Shown here: positions 11,450-56,082 of the stretch, piece by piece
Numbering within the stretch: the stretch's first letter is position 1
Layout of the letters: each line of letters opens with the position of its first letter
NCBI RefSeq assembly: GCF_026191475.2
Contig: NZ_JAOSLC020000003.1
Span: 1,333,001-1,397,000 of the forward strand
Direction of reading: 5' to 3'
From: Polaribacter ponticola
GTDB taxonomy: Bacteria > Bacteroidota > Bacteroidia > Flavobacteriales > Flavobacteriaceae
Length of the DNA stretch: 64,000 nt
Notes under the pieces: generated by a model
What the model saw: only the letters and a program-made list of their open reading frames with translations
What the model was told of the DNA's origin: nothing
The model's database searches: none
Program-made: the position numbers and the translations under genes

Positions 11450-13428
11450 ATGATGAATAAACGACATTTTTTCCTCTTATTATTTATTTTAACTTGGCTT
11501 AATAATACTTATTCGCAAATAAGAGAAATTAAAACTGAGTTTAAGAGTACTAAAAACCAATCTAATACATTTAACCTTTCTCCAAACGATTCTATTATTT
11601 CTGGTGAAACAAAAGTGTTACTTTCTGGAAAAACTAAATATACAGACTATAAAGTTTTTTCACATAAAAGAGATACTACTTATATAGACACTACTTTAAC
11701 AATTCAGAAAGAGTATAAATTTAATTATTTAAGAAGAGACAATTTCGAACTTCTTGCATTTCATAATCAAGGGCAGACTTTTAATAATTTAGGTTATAAT
11801 TTTAACAATATTAAACAATTTCCAGATATTGGTTTTACTAGTAAACAATTTAGTTATTTAGATATTGAAGATATAAAATATTATGAAGTTCCTACTCCTA
11901 CTTCCGAAATACTATATAGAACAGGCTTACAACAAGGGCAGGTTTTAGATGCTTTGTTTACCTTAAATTTTTCAAAAAGGCTTAATGTTTCGTTATCTTA
12001 TAAAGGCTTAAGATCTTTAGGTGCATATAGGCAATCTATAGCTAGTAATGGTAATTTTAGAGGTACATTTCATTATAGAACCCAAGAAAATCAATATGAA
12101 GTAAGAGCCCATATTACAAGTCAAGATTTTTTTAATGAAGAAAGTGGTGGATTAACTGCAGGAGCTTTAGAAAATTTTGTTTCTGAAGCGCCAGACTTTG
12201 AGAACAGAGCAAGATTAGACGTTAATTTAACTGATGCAGAAAACCAATTTGATGGTAGTAGAGTTTATTTCGACCACAGTTTTAAATTAATTTCCAATAA
12301 AGACTCAATACACAACAAAGACTTTAGCAACTTAAAAATTGGTCATATTTTTACAAACGAAAGCAAAAGTTATAGTTTTACTCAAGCTACTGCTACAACA
12401 GCAATATTTGGAAATATTAACTCAACAAATGCAAAAAATACAGAAGCCACAAGCAAAATAACAAATAACGAGTTCAACTTAGAATTTAATTCTAAATACG
12501 TTTTAGGAAAATTTAAAGCAAAAGTAAATTACACAAATTATTCTTATGGATATGATACTATTTTAAATAGTAACAGCACAATAAAAAAGCTAAAACTAGA
12601 AGGTAATGCATTTTCTATTGGAGCAGATTGGAAAGCTAGAATTAAAAACTTTTATTTAAATGCTGATGCTTCAATTACTCCAGGATCTGGTAGGTTGGCT
12701 GGAAACTACTTAAAAGGTGAAGCTGCTTATAAAAAAGACAGTCTTTTTACATTTAAAGGAAGCTTATTAATTAGCTCTAAATCATCTAATTTTAACACAT
12801 TATTACATCAAAGCTCATACGATGATTACAATTGGGATAATAATTTTAGTAATGTAAACACTAGAGATTTAGGTTTTATTTTTAACTCTAAATGGATTAA
12901 TGCTGGTCTTAACTTTACCAATATAGATAATTACACGTATTTTGATGAGAACAATGCTCCGCAACAGTTTACAAATCAAATTACTTATTTAAAAGTAAAA
13001 GCTAATAGGGAGTTTAAATACAAAAAATTTGGATTAGATAACACTGTTATGTATCAAAACGTTAGTAGTGGAAGTTCTGTTTTTAGAGTACCAGAAATTG
13101 TAACTAGAAATACACTTTATTATACAGATTATTGGTTTAAAGGAAAACCTATGTTAGTAAATATTGGTGCTACTTTTAAATATTTCACAAAATACAAAGC
13201 AAATGCTTATAATCCTTTATTAGCTGAATTCACACTTCAAAATGATGAAGAAATTGGTTTTCCTACTGTAGATGTGTTTTTTAACGCCCAAGTTCGTAGA
13301 ACACGCTTATATTTAAAGGTAGATAACGTAACATCGAGCTTTACTAAAAAAATTATTTTTCTGCTCCTAACTACCCTTATAGAGACTTTACAGTCCGTTT
13401 TGGTTTAGTTTGGAATTGGTTTATATAA
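11450..13428 (+). CDS. Putative outer membrane porin (Porin_10 family), C-terminus frameshifted
   Basis: About 659 residues with a signal peptide (residues 1-23, ending NTYSQ). The long body alternates polar and hydrophobic residues as in a beta-barrel. It matches the putative porin family of Bacteroidetes, including KQFSYLDIEDIKYYEVPTPTSEILYRTG near residue 145. As read, the frame ends at 13408 with an atypical tail. If the run of seven A at 13346-13352 had eight, the barrel end is restored as NYFSAPNYPYRDF and VRFGLVWNWFI with a stop at 13426-13428. The terminal aromatic residue is typical of outer membrane barrels. The transported substrate is unknown. Confidence 0.82.
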
Positions 13429-13492
13429 GTCTAAAAAAACTTATTATAAACTATGTTTTAAGTTAATTTAAAAAAACAATCTTAATTTTAAA

Positions 13493-13747
13493 ATGAAAAA
13501 TCAACTTAAAAACAACTGGAAACTTTTTTTAATTGCTAGTTTAACTCTAGGTTTAGCTCCTTTTAATCCTCCTCATATTTTTGGAAAAATAAAGTGGATT
13601 ATTGGAGGAAATGCTTTTTCAACTGAAAACGGAATGAATTCTGGAGACTGTTTTGATGTATTATTACACGGTTCTCCTTGGTTTTTATTATTGATTTCTA
13701 TACTGATAAATCTTTTTGCATTATTGGTAAAAAACGACCAGCAATAG
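13493..13747 (+). CDS. Small conserved membrane protein
   Basis: An 84-residue protein with two membrane segments (about 10-24 and 61-79) and a short loop carrying FNPPHIFGKIKWIIGGN and DCFDVLLHGSPW. I recall similar short proteins in Bacteroidetes that are sometimes labelled RND transporter without evidence; I do not assign a function. It starts 64 bases after the porin and its 3' end overlaps the convergent acetyltransferase gene by 50 bases. Confidence 0.6.
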   Translation: MKNQLKNNWKLFLIASLTLGLAPFNPPHIFGKIKWIIGGNAFSTENGMNSGDCFDVLLHGSPWFLLLISILINLFALLVKNDQQ

Positions 13748-14150
13748 AACTTTCTTTTTTATCAATAATTTCAAATCCTTTAGAGCCATAAAAAGTAACT
13801 GCATTAGGATCTGCTAATAATGTTATTTTATTACATCCTAAATCTTTCGCTTTTTGAAAAGCATGTTGTATTAGTTGATTTCCAATTCCTTTACCTATAA
13901 AAACTGGTAATACAAATAAAAATTCTAATTCAACAACTCTTAATTCTGGTTGATTTAAAATATAAAAGCCTATTATTTTATCATCAGAAATAAACTTATA
14001 AACAATCATTTCTTCAATAATACGTTCAGAAACTGTTAAGTCTTCTACCCAACTTTCTAAAATATCATTTGTATAACCCCAAAATGATTTCGATTTTAAA
14101 GCTATTTTAGTAAGTCTTTTTGCGTCAGAAATTTCAGCAATCTTTATCAT
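13698..14150 (-). CDS. GNAT family N-acetyltransferase
   Basis: A 150-residue acetyltransferase. The acetyl-CoA motif is VLPVFIGKGIGNQLIQHAFQKAKDLG (R/Q-x-x-G-x-G/A pattern, about 80-105), preceded by the strand ELRVVELEFLFVL and followed by ITLLADPNAVTFYGSKGFE, the usual motif B. It lies one base from the nhaC stop and reads in the same direction, downstream of it, so the two are probably co-transcribed. The acceptor substrate cannot be told from the sequence. Confidence 0.85.
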   Translation of the reverse strand: MIKIAEISDAKRLTKIALKSKSFWGYTNDILESWVEDLTVSERIIEEMIVYKFISDDKIIGFYILNQPELRVVELEFLFVLPVFIGKGIGNQLIQHAFQKAKDLGCNKITLLADPNAVTFYGSKGFEIIDKKESSIAGRFLPIMQKDLSV

Positions 14151-14151
14151 A

Positions 14152-15636
14152 TTATTTTGTAGCTAATTCTTTAATTTTAATTTTAAAAGCTGCAAAAATT
14201 AAGGTCATAAAAGGACTTAACCAATTAAAGATTGCATAGAGAGCATAATCAAAAACAGAAACTCCTAAAACTCCAGAATGGTAAGCTCCACAAGTATTCC
14301 AAGGTATTAACACAGAAGTTACTGTACCCGAATCTTCTAAAGTTCTACTTAAATTTTCTGGCGCCAAACCTTTATCTTTAAAAGCTTTTGCATACATTTT
14401 ACCTGGAACTACAATTGCCAAATATTGATCTGAAGCCGTAAAGTTTAAACCTATACATGTAAAAACAGTGCTTGCGAATAAACCAAAAACAGAATCGAAT
14501 AAACTTAACATAAAAGAACTAATTCTAGCTAAAGCTCCAATTGCATCCATTATACCTCCAAAAACCATGGCACATAAAATTAACCAAATTGTACCTAACA
14601 TTTTAGACATTCCGCCTGCTGTAAATAAATCTGCTAATGCTTCATTTTCTGTAGCAACAGAAGTTTCTACTGTTATGGCTTGTAAAATACCTTTATAACC
14701 AGAAGAAAAATCTAAACTATCTACTCCAGCTACTTGAGCAACAACTTCTGGCTGAAAAATTAAAGCGAAAATTGCTCCTAAAATAGTACCTGCCAATAAA
14801 GCTGCTAAAGGTGGAGTTTTTTTAACTATTAAAACGATTACAACAACAGGAACTATAAATAACCATGGGGTTATATTAAACGCTTTATTTATATCTATAA
14901 GTAAAACATTAGTATCTGCTTCACCAGAAGTATTAATTGTAAAACCTAAAATTAAAAAAATAATTAAAGTAATTACTACTGTTGGTATGGTTGTAAATGC
15001 CATATATTTTATGTGGGTAAATAAATCTGTACCCGCCATTGCAGGTGCTAAATTTGTAGTGTCTGACATTGGCGACATTTTATCTCCAAAATATGCACCA
15101 GATAAAACTGCACCTGCTGTCATACCTAAAGAAATACCTAATGCCTCTCCAATACCTATTAATGCAATACCTACAGTAGCTGAAGTAGTCCAAGAACTAC
15201 CTGTAGCTATAGAAATTACAGCACAAATTATTAAACATGCTGCTAAAAATATTGTAGGATTTAGTACCTGCAAACCATAATAAATCATTGAGGGTATAAT
15301 ACCACTAATTAACCAAGTACCAGCTAAAGCACCTACCATTAATAAAATTAAAATTGCGCCAGCTGTAGACTTTATGTTTTCTGCTACTTCCTCAATCATC
15401 GTTTTGTAAGAAACTTTATTTCTAAATCCTACAATTGCTGCAACTGCACCACCTAACAGTAACACAAACTGATTACTTCCACTTAAAGCATCATCTCCAA
15501 AAACAAAAACATTATATGCCAACATTGCTACTAAAGCTAAAACAGGAAACATTGCCTCCCAAATATTCAACTCTTTATTTTCAATGATTTTTTGATCTTC
15601 AATGTTAATTTCTGATAGATTTTTATCGTCTTGCAT
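14152..15636 (-). CDS. nhaC: Na+/H+ antiporter, NhaC family
   Basis: A 494-residue inner membrane protein with about twelve hydrophobic segments. The family signature region TGSSWTTSATVGIALIGIGEALGISLGMTAGAVLSGAYFGDKMSPMSDTTNLAPA (polar residues inside the membrane core, around 145-200) is clear. The length is normal. NhaC exchanges Na+ for H+ and suits a marine bacterium. The N-terminal 25 residues are a cytoplasmic acidic stretch. The start is divergent from, and nearly abuts, the metal-dependent hydrolase gene. Confidence 0.9.
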   Translation of the reverse strand: MQDDKNLSEINIEDQKIIENKELNIWEAMFPVLALVAMLAYNVFVFGDDALSGSNQFVLLLGGAVAAIVGFRNKVSYKTMIEEVAENIKSTAGAILILLMVGALAGTWLISGIIPSMIYYGLQVLNPTIFLAACLIICAVISIATGSSWTTSATVGIALIGIGEALGISLGMTAGAVLSGAYFGDKMSPMSDTTNLAPAMAGTDLFTHIKYMAFTTIPTVVITLIIFLILGFTINTSGEADTNVLLIDINKAFNITPWLFIVPVVVIVLIVKKTPPLAALLAGTILGAIFALIFQPEVVAQVAGVDSLDFSSGYKGILQAITVETSVATENEALADLFTAGGMSKMLGTIWLILCAMVFGGIMDAIGALARISSFMLSLFDSVFGLFASTVFTCIGLNFTASDQYLAIVVPGKMYAKAFKDKGLAPENLSRTLEDSGTVTSVLIPWNTCGAYHSGVLGVSVFDYALYAIFNWLSPFMTLIFAAFKIKIKELATK

Positions 15637-22343: not shown

Positions 22344-23426
22344 TTACCCTTTAATAATTTTCTCTTGATGATTAATCGATTCTTGATGAATTGCTTTAAA
22401 CATTCTTAAAACAAATTCTTCGCTTAAACCTTTACTTTCTCCTTCTAAAATCATGTTTCCAAGAATCTCGTTCCAACGTTTAGATTGTAGTACGGCTACG
22501 TTTTTGTCTTTCTTTAAAGCTCCAATTTGATCGGATACTTTCATCCTCTTTCCTAACAACTCAATTAATTGATCATCTGCAACATTAATTTGAGCACGTA
22601 AATTATCTAAAGAACTTTGGTATTCAGCTTCGTTATTAGTTTCTTTTCTGATTTTTAAGTCTTCCATAATTTGCTTTAATTTTGTTGGTGTAACTTGCTG
22701 CGCTGCATCAGACCAAGCATTATCTGGATCGAAATGAGTTTCTATCATTAAACCATCAAAGTTTAAATCTAAAGCTGTTTGTGAAACATCAAAAATCATT
22801 TCTCTATTTCCTGTAATATGTGATGGATCACAAATTAATGGTAAATCTGGAAATTTGTTTTTAAATTCAATCGCAATTTGCCATTCTGGAACGTTTCGGT
22901 ATTTAGATTTTTCATAGGTTGAAAAACCCCTATGAATTGCTCCTAAATTTTTTATATCTGCTGTATATAATCTTTCAATACCACCTAACCATAATGCCAA
23001 ATCTGGATTTATTGGGTTTTTAACCAATACAATTTTATCAGTACCGTGTAAAGCATCTGCTAATTCTTGCATAATAAAAGGAGAAACAGCTGTACGTGCG
23101 CCAATCCATAATAAATCTACATCATTCTCTAAAGCTAACTTTACGTGTGCTGCATTCGCTACTTCAGTACAGGTTTTCATACCTGTTTCATCTTTCACTT
23201 TCTTTAACCATTTTAAACCTAAAGCACCAACACCTTCAAAATTTCCTGGTCTAGTTCTTGGCTTCCAAATTCCTGCTCTATAATAATTTACATCAGAATC
23301 TTTTAATTCGTGTGCAATTTTTAAAACCTGTTCTTCGGTTTCTGCACTACAAGGCCCTGCTATTACTAGTGGATGATCTAATTTCATATCGTCCAACCAT
23401 GTTCTTAATTCTTTTGTATTCTTCAT
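22344..23426 (-). CDS. DAHP synthase / chorismate mutase fusion
   Basis: A 360-residue bifunctional protein. The N-terminal part (about 1-265) is a type I DAHP synthase related to KDO8P synthase: PLVIAGPCSAETEEQVL, YYRAGIWKPRTRPGNFEGVG, LVKNPINPDLALWLGGIERL and LICDPSHITGNREMI. The C-terminal part (about 270-355) is an AroQ-class chorismate mutase with LDNLRAQINVADDQLIELLGKRMKVSDQIGALKKDKNVAV and the later E-x-x-R-x-x-K-like WNEILGNM. The fusion puts the first shikimate step and the branch to prephenate in one protein. It is the last gene of the attenuated pheA-aminotransferase-tyrA operon. Confidence 0.92.
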   Translation of the reverse strand: MKNTKELRTWLDDMKLDHPLVIAGPCSAETEEQVLKIAHELKDSDVNYYRAGIWKPRTRPGNFEGVGALGLKWLKKVKDETGMKTCTEVANAAHVKLALENDVDLLWIGARTAVSPFIMQELADALHGTDKIVLVKNPINPDLALWLGGIERLYTADIKNLGAIHRGFSTYEKSKYRNVPEWQIAIEFKNKFPDLPLICDPSHITGNREMIFDVSQTALDLNFDGLMIETHFDPDNAWSDAAQQVTPTKLKQIMEDLKIRKETNNEAEYQSSLDNLRAQINVADDQLIELLGKRMKVSDQIGALKKDKNVAVLQSKRWNEILGNMILEGESKGLSEEFVLRMFKAIHQESINHQEKIIKG

Positions 23427-23488: not shown

Positions 23489-24340
23489 TTATTTTATGCC
23501 GTTTAAAATTTGTTTAATATAATTTGTATTCTCCATTTCGTTAAAAATTTCGGAGAAATTATCTTGTTGCATCAATTCTTTAAAATGTTGTAAATTATTG
23601 ATGTATTCTTCTAATGTTTCTATTACGTTTTCTTTATTCTGCTCAAAAATTGGTGTCCACATTGCTGGACTACTTTTTGCCAAACGAACTGTTGATCTAA
23701 AACCTGAACCTGCCATATCAAAAATATCGCGTTCGTTTCTTTCTTTATCTATTACTGTTTTACCTAACATAAATGCACTTATGTGAGATAAGTGCGAAAC
23801 ATAGGCAATATGTTTATCATGCGAAACTGGATCCATATAACGAATACGCATTCCAATAGCTCTAAAAAGGTCTAATGCTTTTTCTTGTAGCTTGAATGTT
23901 GTTTTTTCAACTTCGCAAATAATGTTCGTTTTCCCTTTATACAAAGCAGAAATTGCAGCTGTTGGCCCAGAATTTTCTGTACCAGCAATTGGATGACAAG
24001 CTAAAAAATTTCTTCTATTTTTATGATGTTCAACTACTTTACAAATTGCTTCTTTTGTTGAACCTGCGTCTACAACTAAGCCATTATCTGATATTTTATC
24101 TAAAATTGTTGGCAATAATTTTACTGTTGCATCTACCGGAATTGACACAATTACCAAGTCTGCTTTTTCAATATCATCTAAAACTGCTTTTTCTTGAATT
24201 ACACCTAATGCTATCGCTTTATCTAAATGATCTTCATTGGCATCTATTCCGTAAATTACAGTTTCTGGATTGTTCTTTTTTATATCGATAGCAAAACTAC
24301 CGCCAATTAAACCAACACCAATTAAGTAAATATTTTTCAT
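23489..24340 (-). CDS. tyrA: Prephenate dehydrogenase
   Basis: A 283-residue enzyme that converts prephenate to 4-hydroxyphenylpyruvate on the way to tyrosine. The NAD(P)-binding loop is GVGLIGGSFAIDI (residues 6-18). It is followed by VIVSIPVDAT, DAGSTKEAI, the substrate-binding CHPIAGTENSGP and SHDKHIAYVSHLSHISAFML with the catalytic His. FDMAGSGFRSTVRLAKSSPAMW is also standard. No ACT domain follows, so feedback must come from elsewhere or from attenuation. It is the third gene of the operon. Confidence 0.94.
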   Translation of the reverse strand: MKNIYLIGVGLIGGSFAIDIKKNNPETVIYGIDANEDHLDKAIALGVIQEKAVLDDIEKADLVIVSIPVDATVKLLPTILDKISDNGLVVDAGSTKEAICKVVEHHKNRRNFLACHPIAGTENSGPTAAISALYKGKTNIICEVEKTTFKLQEKALDLFRAIGMRIRYMDPVSHDKHIAYVSHLSHISAFMLGKTVIDKERNERDIFDMAGSGFRSTVRLAKSSPAMWTPIFEQNKENVIETLEEYINNLQHFKELMQQDNFSEIFNEMENTNYIKQILNGIK

Positions 24341-24597: not shown

Positions 24598-25749
24598 TTA
24601 TAGCCTTTTAATCGCTTCTTTAATTACCTCCGTTGTTACACAAAGTGAAAAACGAATATATCCTTCTCCTTGTGATCCAAAAATGGTTCCTGGTGTTATA
24701 AAAATATCGTTTTCATATAAAACTGAATCTGTAACTTCTTCAGATTTTTTTCCTGCGGGAATTTTTGCCCAAACAAATAATCCAGTTGAATTTTTATTAT
24801 AAACTGCATTTAACTTATCAGCTAATTGCCAAATTAGATTTCTGCGTTCTTCGTAAATTTTATTTTGTTTTAAAAACCATTCATCAGATAATTGTAAGGC
24901 TTCAATTGCTCCTTTTTGAATTCCGTAAAACATACCCGAATCCATGTTAGATTTCATCTTTAAAACTTCATTAATAAACGTTGAATTCCCTAACAACATT
25001 CCAACTCGCCAACCTGCCATGTTAAAGGTTTTACTTAATGAATTTAACTCTAAAGCAATGTCTTTTGCACCTTCAACTTGTAAAATACTAATAGGTTTAT
25101 CATTTAAAATAAAACTATACGGATTATCATTAATAATTAAAATGTTGTGCTTTTTACCAAAAGCTACTAATTTTTCAAACGTTTCTAATGTTGCATTTGT
25201 ACCTGTTGGCATATGCGGATAATTTACCCACATAATTTTTACGCTTTCTAAATCTTGACTTTCTAATTCCTCAAAATTTGGTTGCCAATTACTGTCCGCA
25301 CTTAAATCATAAAAAAGTGGTTCTGCTCCTACCAACTTCGTAACTGAAGTATATGTTGGATAACCTGGATTAGGAATTAAAACTTTATCGCCTTCGTTTA
25401 AAAAAGCCATAGAAATATGCATAATTCCTTCCTTACTTCCCATTAATGGTAAAATTTCATTTTCTGGATTTGCGCCTACAGAAAATTTGTTTTTATAAAA
25501 AGTAGCAATTGCATTTCTTAATTCTGGTAAACCTTGATATGATTGATATTTATGTGCACTTGCATCTCCTAAACTATTAGAAATTGCTTCTAATACTTTT
25601 GCTGGTGGTTGTAAATCTGGAGAACCAATTCCCATGTTAATAATTGGTTTTCCTGCAGCTGCTAAACCTCTAACTTCTCTTAATTTTTTAGAGAAATAGT
25701 ATTCTTGAACTGTATCTAATCTTTTGGCTGGTTTAATCATTTTTTTCAC
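24598..25749 (-). CDS. PLP-dependent aminotransferase class I/II (aromatic/aspartate type)
   Basis: A 383-residue fold-type I aminotransferase. It contains GKPIINMGIGSPDLQPPAKVL, YQSYQGLPELRNAIATFY, NPGYPTYTSV, NYPHMPTGTNA and NDNPYSFIL (Asp and Tyr contacting PLP). The PLP Lys is in LNSLSKTFNMAGWRVGML, and a late Arg that binds the substrate carboxylate is in GYIRFSLC. Between pheA and tyrA, its likely job is transamination of phenylpyruvate and hydroxyphenylpyruvate, or of prephenate. The start could also be the ATG three codons in (MIKPAKR, 25740). Confidence 0.88.
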   Translation of the reverse strand: MKKMIKPAKRLDTVQEYYFSKKLREVRGLAAAGKPIINMGIGSPDLQPPAKVLEAISNSLGDASAHKYQSYQGLPELRNAIATFYKNKFSVGANPENEILPLMGSKEGIMHISMAFLNEGDKVLIPNPGYPTYTSVTKLVGAEPLFYDLSADSNWQPNFEELESQDLESVKIMWVNYPHMPTGTNATLETFEKLVAFGKKHNILIINDNPYSFILNDKPISILQVEGAKDIALELNSLSKTFNMAGWRVGMLLGNSTFINEVLKMKSNMDSGMFYGIQKGAIEALQLSDEWFLKQNKIYEERRNLIWQLADKLNAVYNKNSTGLFVWAKIPAGKKSEEVTDSVLYENDIFITPGTIFGSQGEGYIRFSLCVTTEVIKEAIKRL

Positions 25750-25799: not shown

Positions 25800-26627
25800 T
25801 TATTGTCTGCCATTTTTATAAGTTCCTAAAATCTTGAATTCTTCTGCCATTATTTCTATGATAGCATGTGCTTTTTCATAATCCTTATATTTTTCAAAAG
25901 TAACATCAACAAAAAATGAATATTTCCAAGGTGTTTCTATAACTGGCAACGATTGAATTTTGGTTAAACTCATTTTACAATCGCTTAACACATTTAAAAT
26001 TGCTGCTAAACTTCCTCTTTTATGATCTAATTGAAATTTCAACGATGCTTTATTAATTTGATCTATTCCGTTATTTTGTTCTTCCGTTTGTACAATTACA
26101 AATCTTGTTGAATTGTCTTTTATTATTTGAATTTCATCTTCAATAACTACTAAATCAAATATTTCTGCGGCTATTTTTGGCGCAATAGCTGCAATTCCTT
26201 TCAAATTTTTATTTGCTATTCGTTTTGCAACTTCAGCAGTATCTACATCTTCTACTAATTTAATGTGTGGATGCATTTTAAAAAACTCTTTACATTGTAA
26301 CAATGCCATTGGATGCGACCAAACCTCTTTAATATCTTTAAGTTCCTGGCCTTTTAAACACATTAAATGATGATGAATATTTAAATACTCTTCTCCAATA
26401 ATATGAAGGTTATTATTATCAATTAAAGCATAATTAGGAATAATTGAACCCGCAATTGTATTCTCTAAAGCCATAACAGCATGTGTTGCAGAACCGTCTA
26501 ATAAACTATCTACCAAGACATCAAAAGACATGCATTCTTTTAATTCTATAGTTGAACCATAAAAATCGTGTGCAACTTTATGATGGTTTGAACCCTCTGC
26601 TCCTTGTATGGCAATTACTTTATTCAT
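25800..26627 (-). CDS. pheA: Prephenate dehydratase
   Basis: A 275-residue enzyme that converts prephenate to phenylpyruvate. It starts KVIAIQGAEGSNHHKVA (the GxxGS/T prephenate-binding loop). ALENTIAGSIIPNYALI (about 52-68) and the catalytic Thr in NSTRFVIVQ (about 165-173) are present. The C-terminal ACT domain (about 190-270) has RGSLAAILNVLSDCKMSLTKIQSLPV and binds Phe in homologues, although the usual ESRP motif is QSLP here. It is the first structural gene of the aromatic operon; its start lies 18 bases past the leader terminator. Confidence 0.94.
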   Translation of the reverse strand: MNKVIAIQGAEGSNHHKVAHDFYGSTIELKECMSFDVLVDSLLDGSATHAVMALENTIAGSIIPNYALIDNNNLHIIGEEYLNIHHHLMCLKGQELKDIKEVWSHPMALLQCKEFFKMHPHIKLVEDVDTAEVAKRIANKNLKGIAAIAPKIAAEIFDLVVIEDEIQIIKDNSTRFVIVQTEEQNNGIDQINKASLKFQLDHKRGSLAAILNVLSDCKMSLTKIQSLPVIETPWKYSFFVDVTFEKYKDYEKAHAIIEIMAEEFKILGTYKNGRQ

Positions 26628-26644
26628 TTGCTTTAATTAATGTC

Positions 26645-26675
26645 AAAAAAAAGTCTCGAATTAAATTCGAGACTT
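26645..26675 (-). terminator. Attenuator: intrinsic terminator in the pheA leader
   Basis: A perfect 11-bp stem (AAGTCTCGAAT and ATTCGAGACTT, 3-base loop) is followed on the minus strand by eight T. It lies between the leader peptide stop and the pheA start, so transcripts that end here never reach the operon. The 5' arm AAGTCTC can pair instead with GAGACTT inside the leader peptide gene (complement of 26710-26716), which would form an antiterminator. Confidence 0.88.
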
Positions 26676-26693
26676 ATATATTTTAAATGTTTA

Positions 26694-26774
26694 TTAACAA
26701 CATGATACAAAGTCTCTCCTCTTATTGTAAAAATAAAAGTAAAAATAGAAACGTGTCCAAGTTGTTTTTAACAT
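26694..26774 (-). CDS. Phe/Tyr leader peptide of the aromatic amino acid operon
   Basis: A 26-codon open frame (ATG 26774-26772, TAA 26696-26694) with the run FYFYFYFY at residues 9-16 and one more Phe at residue 22. Eight consecutive codons for the two end products of the operon are the hallmark of attenuation leaders such as pheL. The stop is 18 bases before the terminator stem. The start is 25 bases after a good -7 box. Codons 20-22 include GAGACTT, which is complementary to the terminator's 5' arm. A ribosome slowed at codons 9-16 would leave that segment free to pair. Confidence 0.85.
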   Translation of the reverse strand: MLKTTWTRFYFYFYFYNKRRDFVSCC

Positions 26775-26798
26775 CTTAATTCTCTTTGTTTTGAAAGA

Positions 26799-26829
26799 CA
26801 AATCTAAAGATTAAATTTTGATATACAAA
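26799..26829 (-). promoter_or_regulatory. Promoter of the pheA operon
   Basis: On the minus strand TTTG (-33 element) is followed by exactly 19 bases between TTG and TAGATTTG, a full match to TAnnTTTG. This is the Bacteroidetes consensus with ideal spacing. Transcription would start near 26792, about 18 bases before the leader peptide ATG. The rest of the gap up to 26958 is A/T-rich and shows nothing else I can name. Confidence 0.75.
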
Positions 26830-47565: not shown

Positions 47566-47614
47566 GTTTGATATTTTTTATCAGTATGTCATCAGGAAAG
47601 GTGTTCTTTTCGCT

Positions 47615-47743
47615 GTTATCTGTCAAGTAGATACTGAAATTAATTCAGCACAAGCTTGTAGAATGTAGCACCTTCTTTTTCTAATTAAAGAAAAGGGTTG
47701 CTAAGGCTTCAACGGGTCTAATCCCTCTGCCTTTCGTGATAAC
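47615..47743 (-). ncRNA. SAM-I (S-box) riboswitch aptamer
   Basis: On the minus strand the S-box core is clear: GTTATCACGAAAGGCAGAGG, GATTAGACCC, TTGAAGCCTTAGCAACCC, then after a hairpin AAAAAGGTGCTACATTCTAC. P1 pairs GTTATC (47738-47743) with GATAAC (47615-47620). P2 pairs AAGGC with GCCTT. P4 is CAAG..CTTG with an inner CTGAA/TTCAG hairpin. It precedes the metH-metF unit by about 50 bases. No terminator follows, so control may be at translation. SAM binding should lower MetH and MetF expression. The 70 bases upstream, to the cysM stop, may hold its promoter. Confidence 0.9.
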
Positions 47744-47821
47744 GTATCAATAAGAGTATGAACTAAAGCACAAATAAACGTACTATTTTTTTATTTTCAT
47801 AATTATATACGAGCAAATAAA

Positions 47822-49907: not shown

Positions 49908-50015
49908 CTACTTTTCTTTTATTGATATTGTCTGCAAAGTTAAGTAAACCTAACAATGTAAATTATATATTTATAGGTAAAGAATATGAAAAAAACAATT
50001 TGTTTCAAACAAGTT

Positions 50016-50101
50016 TAGCCCAGATTGAAGCATTTGTTTGAGCTCTTTTTTGCCTTTTTTTAGGCAAAAAAAGCGAGTGCTGAAAGCTGGAAATAGCTTC
50101 T
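50016..50101. repeat. Interspersed repeat with long hairpin
   Basis: TAGCCCAGATTGAAGC..GTTTGAGCTC precedes a hairpin (TTTTTTGCC and GGCAAAAAA around a T-rich loop), then GCGAGTGCTGAAAGCTGG. This looks like another flavobacterial interspersed element. It sits in the 204-base gap between the reductase and ferredoxin genes and could act as a weak terminator. Confidence 0.5.
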
Positions 50102-55992: not shown

Positions 55993-56082
55993 TTTGCAAA
56001 TAATTGCGTTAGGGATTGAAACGGCATCCTTTTTTTGTCTTTTTCAAAAAAAGATATAGTGGAAAGCCTGTTAAAACGCCCA
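55993..56082. repeat. Interspersed repeat between cysD and cysN
   Basis: TTGCGTTAGGGATTGAAACG then GCATCC, a T-run, an A-run, and AGATATAGTGGAAAGC..AAAACGCCC. It is the same element as the outer part of 43613-43778, in reverse orientation. A small CTTACAAA..TTTGTAAG hairpin lies just before it. Confidence 0.65.

Follow-up and report, generated by a model that had tools for sequence, protein, structure and literature searches.

A putative ribosome-mediated attenuator with Phe and Tyr codons upstream of the pheA operon in Polaribacter ponticola and other Flavobacteriaceae

In Escherichia coli, the pheL leader gene carries Phe codons and is accompanied by a terminator and an antiterminator, and multivalent attenuators are represented by thrL (Thr/Ile) and ilvL (Ile/Val/Leu). 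Here, we describe a similar arrangement within a 64,000-nt stretch of the Polaribacter ponticola genome (NZ_JAOSLC020000003.1, positions 1,333,001-1,397,000), called the window below, whose own positions serve as coordinates. Like the E. coli pheA attenuator (Rfam RF01859, Phe_leader), the P. ponticola locus has a leader gene with Phe codons, a terminator in front of pheA and an alternative antiterminator, but Tyr is the second main control codon and the operon also includes tyrA and a DAHP synthase gene. As in thrL and ilvL, a single leader contains codons for several amino acids that the operon makes, in this case Phe and Tyr and perhaps Trp. The Phe_leader model matched the window's leader at 15.7 bits (E 4.6), below its gathering cut-off of 55 bits, and an Rfam search at a relaxed E-value returned four matches in the leader, Phe_leader included, all far below their gathering scores.

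A 2010 paper that presents a Firmicutes case of such an attenuator knew of no earlier demonstration outside Proteobacteria and Actinobacteria (PMC2965389), and one published view is that amino acid attenuators may have originated in gammaproteobacteria, with very few transfers (PMC3766115). The family-wide set of leaders reported below argues for a much wider or a repeated origin. The sequence-only reading of this DNA knew of no described attenuator of this kind in Bacteroidetes, which is too strong: passages of a 2021 transcript map of Flavobacterium psychrophilum name structured 5' elements, conserved in Flavobacteriaceae, in front of pheA and hisG, and they report strong clues that leader peptides attenuate amino acid operons (PMC9723704). 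That pheA element lies before the same gene in the same family and is conserved in other genera, and it is likely to be the leader described here, although the passages on pheA, unlike the present description, give neither a leader sequence nor a model. Short ORFs reminiscent of leader peptides are also mentioned in parts of a Bacteroides thetaiotaomicron map (PMC7366714). Among the matches listed in a search of the open-access literature, we found no other paper on a Phe/Tyr attenuator from Bacteroidota; a subscription survey by Lopatovskaya and colleagues (2010) may include predictions for Bacteroidetes. The present work is thus a family-wide, well-supported description of something already half noticed.

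Organization of the pheA leader and operon in P. ponticola

All elements of the leader lie on the minus strand. A putative promoter of the Bacteroidota type, TTTG-N19-TAGATTTG, spans 26799-26829, with TTTG at 26829-26826 and TAGATTTG at 26806-26799. It is followed by a leader gene of 26 codons plus stop (26694-26774; ATG at 26774, TAA at 26696-26694), which encodes MLKTTWTRFYFYFYFYNKRRDFVSCC and contains the run FYFYFYFY as codons 9-16 (26727-26750). An alternative ORF of 35 residues would result from initiation at a TTG located 27 nt further upstream. We prefer the ATG because it is preceded by A at -3, -6, -12, and -13, which are the positive start determinants reported in passages of a Flavobacterium johnsoniae study (PMC6847099).

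Downstream of the control codons, but still within the leader gene, lies GAGACTT (26710-26716), here termed region 2. It is complementary to AAGTCTC in the 5' arm of an intrinsic terminator at 26651-26675, a perfect 11-bp hairpin (-12.5 kcal/mol) in which region 3 (26675-26665) and region 4 (26661-26651) are joined by a TTA loop. A run of eight T (26645-26652) overlaps the end of region 4 by its first two letters and stops 17 nt upstream of the pheA ATG (26627-26625). Two alternative structures are predicted. As long as the 3' arm of the terminator is still unmade, regions 2 and 3 could form an antiterminator hairpin (26669-26716, -11.5 kcal/mol). In addition, both the minimum free energy fold of the window and a consensus fold of 26 relatives contain a protector hairpin between regions 1 and 2 (26712-26752), in which GTTTC (26752-26748) pairs with GAGAC (26716-26712) and CTTTTATT (26739-26732) with AATAAGAG (26726-26719). 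The locus thus holds the parts of a classical attenuator, i.e., a leader ORF with control codons, an intrinsic terminator and an alternative antiterminator with fitting geometry. Direct reading of the minus strand bears out the elements named in the sequence-only reading, namely a TTG-N19 promoter (present in the form TTTG-N19), a 26-codon leader with FYFYFYFY at codons 9-16, a perfect 11-bp terminator with eight T before pheA (26675-26645), and the complementarity of GAGACTT in the leader gene to the terminator 5' arm (26716-26710).

The operon consists of pheA, encoding prephenate dehydratase (25800-26627; PF00800, E 4.5e-52), a class I/II aminotransferase gene (24598-25749; PF00155), tyrA, encoding prephenate dehydrogenase (23489-24340; NF006307 above its cut-off), and a gene for a fused DAHP synthase/chorismate mutase (22344-23426; PF00793 and PF01817), all on the minus strand. 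Domain matches recognise all four functions that had been assigned from the sequence alone. They also agree with the earlier view that this TyrA lacks an ACT domain, since PDH_N and PDH_C were found and ACT gave no match at E 0.001. No DAHP synthase other than that of the operon was recognised in the assembly, which is 94% complete: the other class I match in the genome is KDO8P synthase, and class II DAHP synthase gave no match in this 94% complete assembly.

The control codons and the fold of the leader were compared with chance. Across the 3.58-Mb genome, codons for FYFYFY gave two overlapping matches at the leader and one match elsewhere, and the same pattern read backwards matches once. 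The second FYFYFY site was discarded as a leader, as it lies antisense within a 392-codon ORF. The leader RNA folds 3.95 standard deviations below its shuffles, none of which (0 of 200) was as stable.

Conservation of the leader and its hairpins in Flavobacteriaceae

We compared 138 loci: besides the window, they stem from 27 named genome records with a match to its PheA and from 110 further family genomes; the latter were drawn from 136 family genomes with pheA, the P. ponticola genome included, with 25 left out. An ORF upstream of pheA was counted as a leader when it had at least six F/Y in 10 residues (cut 6) or, more strictly, at least seven (cut 7). At cut 6, leaders were present in 136 of the 138 loci, compared to 3/138 reverse strands and 99/1380 shuffles, and at cut 7 in 131, compared to 1/138 and 18/1380, respectively. 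Only L068 and L125 had no leader upstream of pheA. The gene order pheA-aminotransferase-tyrA-DAHP synthase (aroF) is kept in 77 of 81 longer family loci, among them L125, which thus has no leader despite an intact operon; the 300 nt upstream of its pheA contain repeated motifs such as GACCTGTTAGGT. Bacteroidota hereby gain an easily assayed candidate for ribosome-controlled termination that is near-universal within Flavobacteriaceae.

Phe and Tyr account for 22.6% and 14.6% of the residues in the family leaders. The strict alternation FYFYFYFY is typical of the Polaribacter and Tenacibaculum relatives of the window, while the commonest runs elsewhere are, e.g., WFYFFF and FYFYFFF. The spelling of these codons is very constant: WFYFFF is written TGGTTTTATTTCTTTTTT in 21 of 25 cases, and FYFYFYFY is identical in 10 of 12. 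Such constancy is expected if the same codons also form region 1, which weakens a purely peptide-level argument and points to a role of the codons at the RNA level, perhaps as region 1 of the protector hairpin. With such spelling, peptide constraint and RNA constraint are not cleanly separable. In pairwise comparisons of the eight run codons among the 26 relatives, differences at codon positions 1, 2, and 3 numbered 70, 204, and 362; third positions lead, with few changes overall, and synonymous change is a weak argument for translation of the leader.

The leader starts have A at -3 in 76%, at -6 in 59% and at -12 in 57% of cases, whereas -13 is not raised (30%), and a Shine-Dalgarno-like motif precedes the start in only 2 of the 136 leaders. 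The promoter is only partly conserved: 28 of the 136 loci carry the strict form TTTG-N18-20-TANNTTTG in the 90 nt before the leader (0.3 in shuffles) and the other 108 do not, and TANNTTTG by itself was found in 39 (2.4 in control windows).

Each of the 136 leaders is followed by a terminator hairpin with a T-rich stretch and has a region complementary to the 5' arm of that hairpin. Since the hairpin finder always returns the best available hairpin, we used a shuffle control, in which 2 of 2720 shuffled regions scored as high as their own locus. The stems are free of mismatches in 134/136 loci, and 125/136 tails contain at least five T in eight. The distance between the last aromatic codon and the start of region 2 is 5-14 nt (median 10, quartiles 10 and 11), a range whose lower bound is fixed by the design of the search and whose tight upper bound is not. 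In 129 of the 136 loci this start lies within the leader gene, and in the remaining ones less than 12 nt past the stop. The 2:3 pairing has a mean energy of -10.8 kcal/mol, compared to -5.1 kcal/mol for shuffled segments; at most 5 of 100 shuffles were as strong in 121/136 loci, and none in 68.

Regions 2 and 3 occur as matched types, GAGRY with GTCTC, GGGRY with GTCCC and AGGRY with GTCCT, in 114 of the 124 loci that could be classified (12 unclassified). The same-genus genome L219, for instance, has the strands GAGGCTT/AAGCCTC/GAGGCTT where the window has GAGACTT/AAGTCTC/GAGACTT. In the 26 closest relatives, the 2:3 core shows one-sided changes only (3/26 at one pair) and the core of the terminator 5' arm is invariant, so that covariation counting is uninformative in sequences this alike. 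We therefore permuted the partners among divergent representatives with PheA identities below 75, 70, 65, and 60% (45, 29, 23, and 13 loci, respectively). At each of the four cut-offs, 0 of 1000 permutations reached the mean of the own partners, i.e., the 2:3 pairing is lineage-specific. On the PheA tree, the type changed five times on each side, and an independent-pairs test yielded three pairs only.

Segment-wise consensus folds of the 26 relatives contain three hairpins, namely the 1:2 protector, a 2:3 antiterminator with 11 pairs, and the 3:4 terminator. The protector is the least certain of the three, with moderate statistical support across the family. Its mean predicted energy is -9.2 kcal/mol, compared to -6.6 kcal/mol for shuffles and -8.1 kcal/mol for the loci's own F/Y codons in reordered form; at most 5 of 50 dinucleotide shuffles were as stable in 67/136 loci, whereas against reordered F/Y codons this was the case in 19/136. 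The comparison of relatives for aromatic codons and matched stems, which the sequence-only reading had suggested, thus favours the attenuator. The reading had also named homologous leaders lacking aromatic codons or the hairpin as evidence that would count against it, and 136 of the 138 family loci have both.

Proposed mechanism and alternative explanations

We consider it very probable that the pheA operon is preceded by a ribosome-mediated transcription attenuator, a reading supported by the leaders in 136 of 138 loci and the lineage-specific pairing of region 2 with the terminator arm. As a model, we propose that a ribosome begins on the leader immediately upon its transcription. When charged tRNA-Phe or tRNA-Tyr is scarce, this ribosome would stall on FYFYFYFY. 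A ribosome whose A site holds the last aromatic codon should have its front edge approximately at the start of region 2, so that a stalled ribosome would leave region 2, about 10 nt past that codon, free for pairing with region 3, whereas a ribosome at the stop codon would cover it. The 2:3 pairing would block the terminator and allow RNA polymerase to proceed into pheA, the aminotransferase gene, tyrA and the DAHP synthase/chorismate mutase gene. After synthesis of region 4, the terminator is more stable than the antiterminator (-12.5 compared to -11.5 kcal/mol in the window), and the latter must therefore win by forming first. When Phe and Tyr are plentiful, the ribosome would reach the stop and the 3:4 terminator would form; when there is no translation, the 1:2 hairpin would hide region 2, and transcription would be expected to stop as well. 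Attenuation requires a ribosome close behind RNA polymerase, and these leaders therefore make transcription-translation coupling testable where initiation does not use Shine-Dalgarno pairing. They may also serve as a natural amino-acid-responsive switch for laboratory use.

The same hairpins could instead act on translation, if the last one blocked the pheA start until a ribosome on the leader opened it. The position of the hairpin would allow this in roughly one in four of the 136 loci, where it ends 6-14 nt before pheA (lower quartile 14 nt), but in 25/136 it ends at least 60 nt upstream, with a maximum of 337 nt, and 125 of the 136 hairpins have a T-rich tail behind them. We regard translational attenuation as very unlikely. 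Another explanation assigns the sensing to the nascent peptide, which, from within the exit tunnel, would detect free Phe or Tyr and arrest the ribosome, whose position would then set the RNA fold. TnaC senses Trp in the exit tunnel, and a long aromatic peptide that is conserved within lineages, codon spelling included, could likewise contact the tunnel. However, the C-terminal part, which would be placed at the peptidyl transferase centre, varies by lineage (RRDFVSCC, KRNETLYV, KRGTGLF), as does the position of the leader stop, and this stretch also encodes region 2, which is matched to its own terminator. Arrest by the nascent peptide thus appears highly improbable to us.

Conservation of the F/Y codons at the RNA level would also be compatible with an untranslated element, such as a T-box, a riboswitch or a protein-binding site, that contains an ORF by chance. 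Nevertheless, no Rfam match in the leader reached its gathering score, the attenuator hairpins are the only ones in the consensus fold of the 26 relatives, and the F/Y ORF is retained where the letters of the stems differ, which leaves very little room for such an element. An equally small chance remains that the leader peptide is a small protein acting in trans and that attenuation is secondary. The peptide peTrpL of Sinorhizobium meliloti reportedly has a trans role (PMC7298713) and provides a precedent, but the sequence outside the aromatic run differs between lineages of Flavobacteriaceae. Transcription attenuation by a leader ribosome accordingly remains our preferred reading for the pheA locus.

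Amino acids probably sensed, and related leaders

The sequence-only reading had regarded Phe and Tyr codons as fitting an operon that makes both amino acids. This holds in so far as F/Y dominate the leaders, but Trp is enriched as well, and Phe and Tyr may not be the whole signal. A Trp codon is present in 88 of the 136 leaders, compared to 22.9 expected from base composition, and these codons cluster at few places, at or just before the F/Y run. Because of this enrichment and because the operon carries the sole recognised DAHP synthase, the leader may respond to all three aromatic amino acids.

Leaders of the same type occur outside Flavobacteriaceae. In the same class, 20 of 31 further genomes with pheA have a leader at cut 6 and 17 at cut 7, compared to 0/31 reverse strands and to 14/620 (cut 6) and 2/620 (cut 7) shuffles; the other 11 of these 31 genomes had no leader upstream of pheA, and for two of the 20 leaders (L180 and L206) the region 2 given by the automatic parse was not convincing. 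Elsewhere in the phylum, 77 genomes of other classes had a match; we examined 40 of them and found leaders in two, G211 and G176. The G176 leader belongs to a second prephenate dehydratase locus, which encodes a 674-residue chorismate mutase-prephenate dehydratase-DAHP synthase fusion. This locus has 67% GC and contains ...RRFSFYFYFYFGY... followed by a 12-bp terminator upstream of the fusion gene.

A search of 117 genomes of the G176 class yielded five full-length fusions. As a raw count, three of them (L234, L237, and L238) have an aromatic leader with a T-run terminator upstream of position 1501, whereas L235 and L236 had no such leader with a T-run terminator. The three leaders contain FSFYFYFYFGY, YSGYWF, and SFYYGYWF, with 8, 4, and 6 aromatic residues in 10, respectively; YSGYWF by itself is weak evidence. 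In L237 and L238, a GGCGGGC just past the aromatic codons has the same letters as the terminator's 3' arm. In the same search, 25 other chorismate mutase-prephenate dehydratase loci of this class had no leader at cut 7.

Taken at its widest, the reading would be that a three-way sensor, in which Phe and Tyr codons are often joined by a Trp codon in a constant position, gates an operon with the only recognised DAHP synthase and hence the gateway to Phe, Tyr, and Trp alike, and that such attenuators are class-wide and recur in high-GC members of another class before the fused chorismate mutase-prephenate dehydratase-DAHP synthase. We put this forward tentatively, as a possibility somewhat less likely to be right than wrong. 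If true, tight coupling of ribosome and polymerase would be general in a phylum that initiates without Shine-Dalgarno pairing.

Within P. ponticola, the pheA leader is one of a set of amino acid leaders, the others of which lie on the minus strand of contig C3. A His leader, MNFIQKHHHHFYNCSQAI (HHHH; ATG at 456191, L233), precedes hisG and is followed by a 12-bp terminator with a T run, and a Trp leader, MKHNTNNTWWWNSLI (WWW; ATG at 1191134, L231), precedes trpE and is followed by a strong terminator. These two are probably His and Trp attenuators of the same design as the pheA leader. A short leader ORF before thrA, MNTIIRTTTITL (ATG at 2218966, L229), is a candidate Thr/Ile leader, for which we found no T-run terminator downstream. 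In contrast to the his, trp, and thr leaders, which contain single-amino-acid runs, the pheA leader mixes Phe and Tyr. The 420 nt that precede the leading gene of the leu/ilv cluster showed no leader with branched-chain codons. The aspartokinase-homoserine dehydrogenase gene thrA itself appears to be split over two ORFs (L229, minus strand, 12168-12719 and 12851-14605), owing to either a real frameshift or an assembly error. Among other RNA elements, an Rfam search of the window identified a SAM riboswitch at 47613-47745 on the minus strand, and two copies of the Flavo-1 RNA motif lie on the plus strand at 50013-50097 and 56001-56077.
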